Positions 32,684 through 33,848 of a stretch of DNA of 64,000 nucleotides are shown here, one piece after another. Positions within the stretch are counted from its first letter, which is position 1, and each line of letters starts with the position of its first letter. A program made the translations under genes and the position numbers. Below the pieces are notes generated by a model. The model saw only the letters and a list, made by a program, of their open reading frames with translations, had not been told where the DNA came from and searched no databases. The DNA lies in assembly GCA_947499125.1 (NCBI GenBank), contig CANMMP010000004.1, positions 310,001 through 374,000 on the forward strand, written 5' to 3'. Origin of the DNA: an uncultured Pontibacter sp. (GTDB lineage Bacteria > Bacteroidota > Bacteroidia > Cytophagales > Hymenobacteraceae).

Positions 32684-32751
32684 AATTGAACGGTTTGTAC
32701 ATAAAGCGAGCAAGGCGTAGCCGAGGCTTGGCTTATGTGCCATGTTGTAGC
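32684..32751 (-). other. attC-like integron recombination site
   Basis: On the minus strand the site runs GCTACAAC ... GTTCAAT. The arms ACATAA/TTATGT, GC/GC and CAAG/CTTG pair, and the unpaired bases (A, GAG, G) sit on one arm only, which is the hallmark of attC extrahelical bases. The R'' core GCTACAAC is the exact complement of GTTGTAGC at the other end of the cassette (33167-33174). The spacing from AAC to GTT is 58 bp, within the attC size range. Confidence 0.65.
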
Positions 32752-33173
32752 ATGTTGTTTTTATCTTCTATTTATAGTTATAAAGACTACAGTTCCGATG
32801 AATAGCCCATACACGAATATCAACTGAAAAACTCCAAGTAGCTTAAGCAAAGCCTTATTCGAAGCATTGTGCTTTTTGAGCACTTCTCTTTGCTTTGGAA
32901 AATTTAGAAAATATTTTCTACTAAAGAGAAAGTTAAACAAAAATATTACTGCTACGATTACTGCAAGTTCATTCGCACTCATGCTAAAAAGTTTGTCGGT
33001 AGCAAGCAAAAGGAACAAGCTCAAACTAAGTATTGACAAACAAGTTGAATGTATAGTCGAGCTTACTTGGTTACGCCCTAGAATTGCATTCCTTGGTACA
33101 ACTGAATAGATGCATAAGTAGGTGTAATCAAACAAACTCATTTATACTTTTTCTTAATTCCAATTTGCTACAA
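32691..33173 (-). mobile_element. Integron-type gene cassette, 483 bp
   Basis: The cassette is bounded by two G^TT cores. It begins TTGTAGCAAATTGG on the minus strand at 33173, contains one gene (33141 to 32761, minus), and ends at the attC-like site with G^TTCAAT at 32691. The match between the first seven bases of the cassette and its own R'' core is what circular cassette integration predicts. The interior is more AT-rich than the flanks. It lies on the same strand as the IntI-like remnant, which ends 144 bp upstream. Confidence 0.65.
32761..33141 (-). CDS. Cassette-borne membrane protein, 126 aa
   Basis: I do not recognise this protein. It has three hydrophobic segments: LSILSLSLFLLLATDKLF, ANELAVIVAVIFLFNFLFS and LLGVFQLIFVYGLFIGTVVF. 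A basic region (RKYFLNFPKQREVLKKHN) lies between the second and third, and the short N-terminal part contains cysteines. The gene is more AT-rich than its neighbours and fills most of the cassette, as is typical of single-gene integron cassettes. It has no visible promoter of its own beyond the short cassette leader. A toxin or defence role would be speculation. Confidence 0.7.
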   Translation of the reverse strand: MSLFDYTYLCIYSVVPRNAILGRNQVSSTIHSTCLSILSLSLFLLLATDKLFSMSANELAVIVAVIFLFNFLFSRKYFLNFPKQREVLKKHNASNKALLKLLGVFQLIFVYGLFIGTVVFITINRR

Positions 33174-33316
33174 CTACCTCGAAAGCGTGAACATACCGTT
33201 ATTGACACTATGTGCGAAGGTATAAATTTGCAAATTCACTATTGGCAAAGTACCTGGCTGTCCGTTCCTCACTGCTTCCATTTGTTTAAATTTACTTCAG
33301 CTAATATAATACACTC

Positions 33317-33510
33317 CTACAAACAATCCAGCGGACTCGTAATTTTATCTAAAGCATGGCTTGTAACATGTGTGTAGATCTCACTAGTCCTGCTCGAGTT
33401 ATGGCCAAGCAGCTTTTGTATATACCGCAGATTGGTGCCCTGCTCCAGCAGGTGAGTGGCAAAAGAGTGCCGGAGGGTATGCGGAGTTGCCTTTGTTTTT
33501 ACACCTGCGA
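33317..33510 (-). pseudogene. Integron integrase (IntI-like) C-terminal remnant
   Basis: The last 65 or so codons of a tyrosine recombinase are preserved: [18 protein letters not shown], then [20 protein letters not shown] and a SPLD-x-L ending. This contains the box II His-x-x-Arg, the Leu-Gly-His motif and the catalytic Tyr (EIYTH). The SPLDxL tail is shared with IntI-type integrases such as IntI1. Box I and the rest of the protein are missing. Upstream of about codon AGVKTK the minus-strand frame turns into sequence antisense to a zinc-ribbon gene, so the protein is 5'-truncated and surely inactive. Confidence 0.75.
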
Positions 33511-33848
33511 GCGGACGAATTGATAAAAAGTATTGTTCGAACCAATGCAGGGCCACGGCAGGCAACAGGCGTAAAGAAGATGATAAGGGAGAACAGCTGT
33601 TGCGGGATATAAACAACCGGTTACGCCACAACCGCAAACTGCTGCGCCAGGCAAGCCCCGAAGGTAAGACGACTCTTAGAAAAACATCGCAACAGCAGGC
33701 AGGCTTCTATTTCAGGCATTTTACGCTCCTTTACCGTACAAAACAGGACAATACCTACTACTTTTGCTACGATTATGGCTACATGCTTTTAGAAGACGAA
33801 AAGGTGCTGGTGGTAAACTGGCAACCTTATATGGCCAATACCTTATAA
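33456..33848 (+). pseudogene. Zinc-ribbon protein with replaced 5' end
   Basis: From about residue 19 the protein reads [20 protein letters not shown], then [16 protein letters not shown] and YYFCYDYGYMLLEDEKVL. I recognise this as a small Bacteroidota family with an N-terminal C-x2-C...C-x3-C zinc finger. The first 18 codons come from DNA that is antisense to the integrase remnant, so the original first cysteine pair has been lost. The borrowed sequence (ECRRVCG) happens to supply two cysteines. Whether the hybrid folds is unknown; I place the junction at about 33505-33515. Confidence 0.6.

Follow-up and report, generated by a model that had tools for sequence, protein, structure and literature searches.

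The 64-kb window analysed here, a piece of a 3.98-Mb draft genome, very probably (at a rough probability of 85%) contains a chromosomal integron platform of Pontibacter, now in decay, that holds one real gene cassette and whose type of recombinase, lacking the additional (I2) domain of integron integrases, would act by an integron-type mechanism. More broadly, genome comparison reveals integrons in Pontibacter and in many other Bacteroidia, and their recombinase is without the helix-bearing insert that is regarded as the defining feature of an integron integrase. The system is integron-like by every sequence test of its cassettes and is outside the canonical definition in the domain make-up of its integrase; in Pontibacter it is also outside that definition with respect to extrahelical bases.

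The window cassette and its decayed platform

On the minus strand the locus reads as a recombinase remnant (33508-33317), about 100 nt of sequence, an attI-like site (33220-33172), the cassette (33173-32691) with its ORF (33141-32761), and an attC site (32751-32685), the only attC within the window; 3' of it a DUF4440 gene encoded on the opposite strand ends. The cassette begins at the crossover G^TTGTAGC (33174/33173) and ends at the G of R' (32691), a 483-bp minus-strand unit whose boundaries a preliminary description, made from the letters of the DNA, had placed exactly. That description also correctly gave R'' (GCTACAAC, 32751-32744) as the exact complement of the cassette's first bases, which match at 5/5 core positions, and R' as GTTCAAT, which we locate at 32691-32685; between them the stem is formed by ACATAA.. 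and ..TTATGT. The predicted product of the ORF, likewise anticipated as a three-helix membrane protein, has 126 aa and three hydrophobic, predicted transmembrane segments. It matches no family, and we found no homologue, whether inside a cassette or in a non-cassette context, in 148 other genomes or in sets of genome contigs and of plasmids. With its matching cores and a leader of 32 nt, the cassette is typical of those in congeneric genomes. The preliminary description was right about the cassette; what escaped it were the remnant of the recombinase, the attI site and the larger system around them.

When the region was used as a query against 59 genomes, matches were found in 38: the 37 genomes of the genus, its own included, and one weak match within the same order. 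These BLAST matches form three blocks: one over the end of the recombinase, one over the attI-like site and one over the attC. Among congeners, the upstream block of attI and recombinase end matches with E values down to 2.1e-48 and the attC with E values down to 7.8e-17. An Rfam search gave no match.

The remnant (33317..33508, minus strand) is what is left of a tyrosine recombinase gene, its final ~63 codons, and ends in SPLDCL; it aligns to the intact copies and to positions 253-315 of the TIGR02249 profile. It retains HxLRH and the catalytic tyrosine and is without Arg-I and Lys, so it should be inactive. Immediately beside it, on the plus strand, stands a 5'-truncated gene (33504..33848) for a treble-clef-like YCSxxC protein, and next comes a minus-strand gene for an APP1-like phosphatase. 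In intact loci this partner gene is divergent from a recombinase gene of ~480-500 aa, the 3' end of which faces attI, and alignment with the intact integron of genome G003 (L181) shows that homology jumps from locus position ~619 to ~2053. A single continuous deletion, its junction lying at ~33504-33508, has thus joined what remains of the two genes: the recombinase has lost its 5' part, the partner its start, and the sequence between the genes is missing altogether. The partner gene occurs in 32/37 congeners, where it usually adjoins the recombinase, and at 8/20 of the loci from other genera; for this reason we rejected the idea that the plus-strand ORF 33456-33848 is a host gene broken by insertion. 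Partner proteins of the window, L108, L111 and other loci show a weak match to the DUF2116 treble clef. The partner could be a regulator or a recombination factor.

Between the recombinase stop codon and the first cassette, intact integrons have a conserved site ending in G^TT. Its counterpart in the window is the attI-like site CCTTCGCACATAGTGTCAATAACGGTATGTTCACGCTTTCGAGGTAGTT (33172..33220, minus strand), with the crossover G^TT at its end, which is conserved both in intact integrons and in solitary sites. Shortly 3' of the recombinase stop codon is TATATTAG (33301..33308, minus strand), a candidate -10 element of a cassette promoter, which recurs in nearly all of the intact loci listed. At about 20 other sites in the genus an attI-like element stands with no recombinase, in most cases ahead of one to three attC-ended cassettes, and further truncated recombinase copies exist in other genomes. 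Together, these suggest that platforms spread and then lose the recombinase. The solitary attI-like sites (L028 1343-1297, minus; L029 1674-1634, minus; L030 1550-1591, plus; L220-L239) have unrelated 5' flanks.

The chromosomal address of the platform can be recognized in relatives, all of them different species of the genus and not sister strains. In six of these genomes DUF4440 and APP1 are convergent neighbours only 71-188 bp apart, an empty site that matches the cassette-free flanks that had been suggested as a check; in the window the gap between the same genes is 1245 bp, and several other relatives also have larger gaps. Genome G004 carries an intact partner and recombinase with at least 13 attC beside the same APP1 gene, and G008 has a broken version of the integron there. 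One address is therefore found in empty, full and decayed states.

Cassettes and attC sites across Pontibacter

To describe the attC sites of the genus we used a purpose-built covariance model, R1, made from 26 attC. It matches the window at 32684-32751 with 77.8 bits, a circular score because the window site is in the training set; the BLAST matches given above are not circular. With R1 (E<=0.001), attC are found in 37/37 Pontibacter genomes, with at least 9 to 56 in each; these are minimum counts, since scoring covered 138 candidates in every genome. Across the 26 aligned sites the core AAC/GTT is invariant, 93.4% of cells in the stem are paired versus 26-37% in slid controls, and 40 cells are compensatory double changes. 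The alignment contains a 1x1 mismatch, a 2x3 apical loop and, in 23/26 sites, a conserved G.T pair between columns 27 and 50. The hairpin has an unpaired central spacer that is asymmetric (5-7 nt versus 3-4 nt) and an apical part that varies in length.

In integrons, the terminal R'' of a cassette is complementary to the cassette's own first bases. This self-match arises because a single attC, present in the free circular cassette, is the source of both. For 124 consecutive cassettes from congeners, the agreement over the five variable core positions averages 4.46/5, versus 1.91 (s.d. 0.10) when shuffled, about 25 standard deviations above the shuffles, and all of the first three positions are matched in 105/124 cassettes where 13 are expected. 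In 22 loci with 162 attC altogether, every attC of an array points the same way, which is also the direction of the recombinase. The longest ORF is forward in 121/124 cassettes, with a median leader of 25 nt and a median coding fraction of 0.81. The abundance in relatives of cassettes that have this hairpin and whose cores self-match bears out the proposal that the window unit is a genuine cassette. At least one transmembrane segment is predicted in 54/122 cassette proteins (L031, L033, L166-L185).

In a canonical attC the R''-L'' arm carries extrahelical bases, two or three in number (PMC2727003), and the window hairpin had been described as having unpaired bases on one arm only. The alignment, in which the two arms of the 26 attC have 15 columns each and no indels, does not support this description. 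In a fold scan of 87 Pontibacter attC, 64 have no bulge and 77 have no single-base bulge on the R''-L'' arm, whereas the extrahelical bases of the canonical control set, consisting of three sites, were recovered (aadA1 two, aadA2 two, cmlA1 one plus an asymmetric loop). The bottom strand folds more stably than the top in 159/162 attC, by a mean of 2.5 kcal/mol, compared with 0.4 kcal/mol for the class 1 control attC (n=3). Outside the genus attC are mixed, some being perfect stems with G.T pairs and others having one or two canonical extrahelical bases. We therefore rejected the generalization that such bases are missing throughout the Bacteroidia; their absence is no group-wide rule. At L186 and L195, I2-less recombinases accompany attC with canonical extrahelical bases, so the two traits are not strictly coupled.

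A recombinase without the I2 domain

The recombinase is present in 33/37 congeners with invariant catalytic residues, the full catalytic set being found in intact copies; its named relatives are mostly from Pontibacter, with others from Rufibacter, Adhaeribacter and Botryobacter. The spacing from GKGxKxR to HxLRH is 58 in 46/46 sequences (30 from the genus and 16 measurable ones from other Bacteroidia); it is 100 in every canonical IntI measured (12/12), and the values for two Xer are 64 and 66. Residues ~208-249 of VchIntIA (2A3V) have no counterpart in it. Both observations indicate that the additional (I2) domain of IntI is absent. The N-terminus is extended instead: residues 1-200 of L048 form two tandem repeats of ~65 residues that precede the core-binding and catalytic domains, and AlphaFold (mean pLDDT 82.6) predicts each repeat as beta-beta-alpha-beta-beta-alpha-beta. 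This extension matches no Pfam family, and the PDB fold matches listed are to whole tyrosine recombinases. Homologues in other Bacteroidia mostly match only the second N-terminal repeat or the catalytic part.

By sequence and fold, the best matches of the core-binding and catalytic domains are to the Xer enzymes (XerC/XerD/XerA), which likewise have no I2, and VchIntIA comes next. Unlike those enzymes, the recombinase has the SPLD.L C-terminal motif of IntI and is linked to attI and cassette arrays. We rejected its identification as a housekeeping XerC or XerD because the genome has separate Xer-like genes of 307 and 293 aa and because the XerC/XerD profiles score well below their cut-offs. 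The TIGR02249 profile also scores it below cut-off, and the genome as a whole contains no match over that cut-off. In a weakly rooted tree, with long branches and only two Xer outgroups, all canonical IntI group together in a single clade at the end of a long branch, and the I2-less enzymes are placed around it.

The family extends well beyond the genus, to 195/395 Bacteroidia genomes (E<=1e-50), with matches mostly over the C-terminal 270-360 residues. A stem scan 3' of 20 recombinase genes from outside the genus found 31 attC-like sites in the same orientation and 0 in the opposite one, with cores that self-match at 4.23/5 versus 1.87 shuffled, and R1 matches agree in 20/21 cases. Many recombinase genes in other Bacteroidia stop near a contig edge on the 3' side, as would be expected if repeated attC arrays break assemblies. 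Canonical IntI exceed the cut-off in 84/297 genomes of the phylum, and only one of the 84 (G199) is in the same class.

The resemblance to canonical integrons (IntI1 of plasmid R100, VchIntIA, chromosomal integrons) includes one forward ORF per cassette, a short leader, a self-matching 5' core and R'', a hairpin with an unpaired central spacer and a G after AAC, and an attI that adjoins the recombinase gene. The differences are the missing domain of ~40 residues, the N-terminal extension, the lack of extrahelical bases in most Pontibacter attC, and a recombinase gene that points towards attI. In the last respect the 'reverse' integrons of Treponema come to mind; these are set apart by description only, the accessible text of PMC3607928 reporting no missing domain. 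Integrons of the Bacteroidetes group have been sparsely described, with one complete example, that of Salinibacter ruber M1, named in IntegronFinder 2.0 beside Chlorobi and Ignavibacteriae (PMC9024848). Although it comes from the same Bacteroidetes/Chlorobi group, it was found with IntI profiles, which would probably miss the present integrons or call them attC-only clusters. The additional domain has been treated as defining (PMC9668308). Its insertion is not fully conserved among 'integron-like' tyrosine recombinases according to the accessible part of PMC8138268, which ties no insertion-less member of that subgroup to cassette arrays. We found no account of I2-less integrons in the open-licence literature, subscription papers and preprints being outside the search.

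Mechanism, rival readings and significance

We hypothesize that the intact recombinase would cut at the G^TT of attI and in the folded bottom strand of attC, and that the cassette circle would join attI by a single strand exchange to be resolved by replication, as in canonical integrons. As I2 is absent and extrahelical bases mostly are too, the bottom strand would be picked by its greater stability, which may come from G.T pairs at positions that form C.A mismatches in the top strand and from a GTA loop, and the asymmetric unpaired spacer may also contribute to this choice. In the window, where the recombinase is presumably dead, the cassette would be mobile only if another recombinase acts in trans. 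An intact recombinase does exist elsewhere in the genome, but it is paired with a different type of attI, making such a rescue uncertain. This other type (L168, L166, L167, L033) has, in some intact integrons, a near-perfect inverted repeat just before G^TT, such as AACAGGAGTA-GG-TACTCCTGTT; the window's type has no such repeat.

I2 has been linked to single-strand recombination (PMC4792948, PMC7790495), and work cited in the accessible part of PMC7790495 reports it to be necessary for cassette capture. The chemistry of I2-less enzymes might therefore be a different one, or they might depend on a partner. The same report, that I2 is essential, would favour real cassettes moved, now or formerly, by a canonical I2-bearing integrase in trans, with the linked I2-less recombinase as a passenger or otherwise employed, and canonical IntI do occur elsewhere in the phylum, in other classes (84/297 genomes). 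However, the genome itself has no match over the TIGR02249 cut-off, G199 is the single positive in its class, and it is the I2-less recombinase that, in Pontibacter as in other genera, immediately precedes attI and the array and shares their orientation; we find this explanation improbable. Somewhat less so, but still unlikely, is an Xer-like mode of action, in which double-stranded attC is the substrate of the I2-less enzyme and the hairpin is a mere legacy or a regulatory feature. A catalytic core nearest to Xer in sequence and fold and the lack of an I2 to hold a folded strand are compatible with this. Stem covariation and better folding of the bottom strand (159/162) are expected only if the single strand matters, though, and the arrays are strictly oriented.

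Two other readings dispense with recombination altogether. Hairpins 3' of genes are common, and the homogeneity of these sequences within the genus could suggest that ordinary genes are here followed by terminators of transcription or by some dispersed palindromic repeat; yet a terminator gives R'' no reason to match the first bases of its own unit, ~25 s.d. over the shuffles, and the invariant AAC/GTT core of 26 sites, the lack of a T-run and the uniform orientation leave this reading very little credence. The single attC of the 64-kb window might by itself be taken as a chance hairpin beside an ordinary orphan gene, a reading refuted by the relatives and negligible in the face of the BLAST matches, the attC in 37 congeners, the core self-match and the empty sites.

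Returning to an integron-type mechanism, we put at even odds the broader hypothesis that a widespread lineage in the Bacteroidia has an I2-less recombinase that captures cassettes through single-stranded attC hairpins, with the strand set by stem stability and not by extrahelical bases. Such a lineage would be either the living counterpart of an I2-less ancestor of the integrase or one in which I2 was lost with function kept. I2 and the extrahelical bases have been called co-evolved, posing the chicken-and-egg paradox of how I2 could be selected before attC existed (PMC4792948), and a lack of intermediates has been noted (PMC7790495). If I2-less recombinases do drive these cassette arrays, the question of the origin of I2 and attC would become directly testable. 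Surveys based on IntI profiles would then be overlooking integrons in a major bacterial class, and with them a large reservoir of unknown cassette genes.
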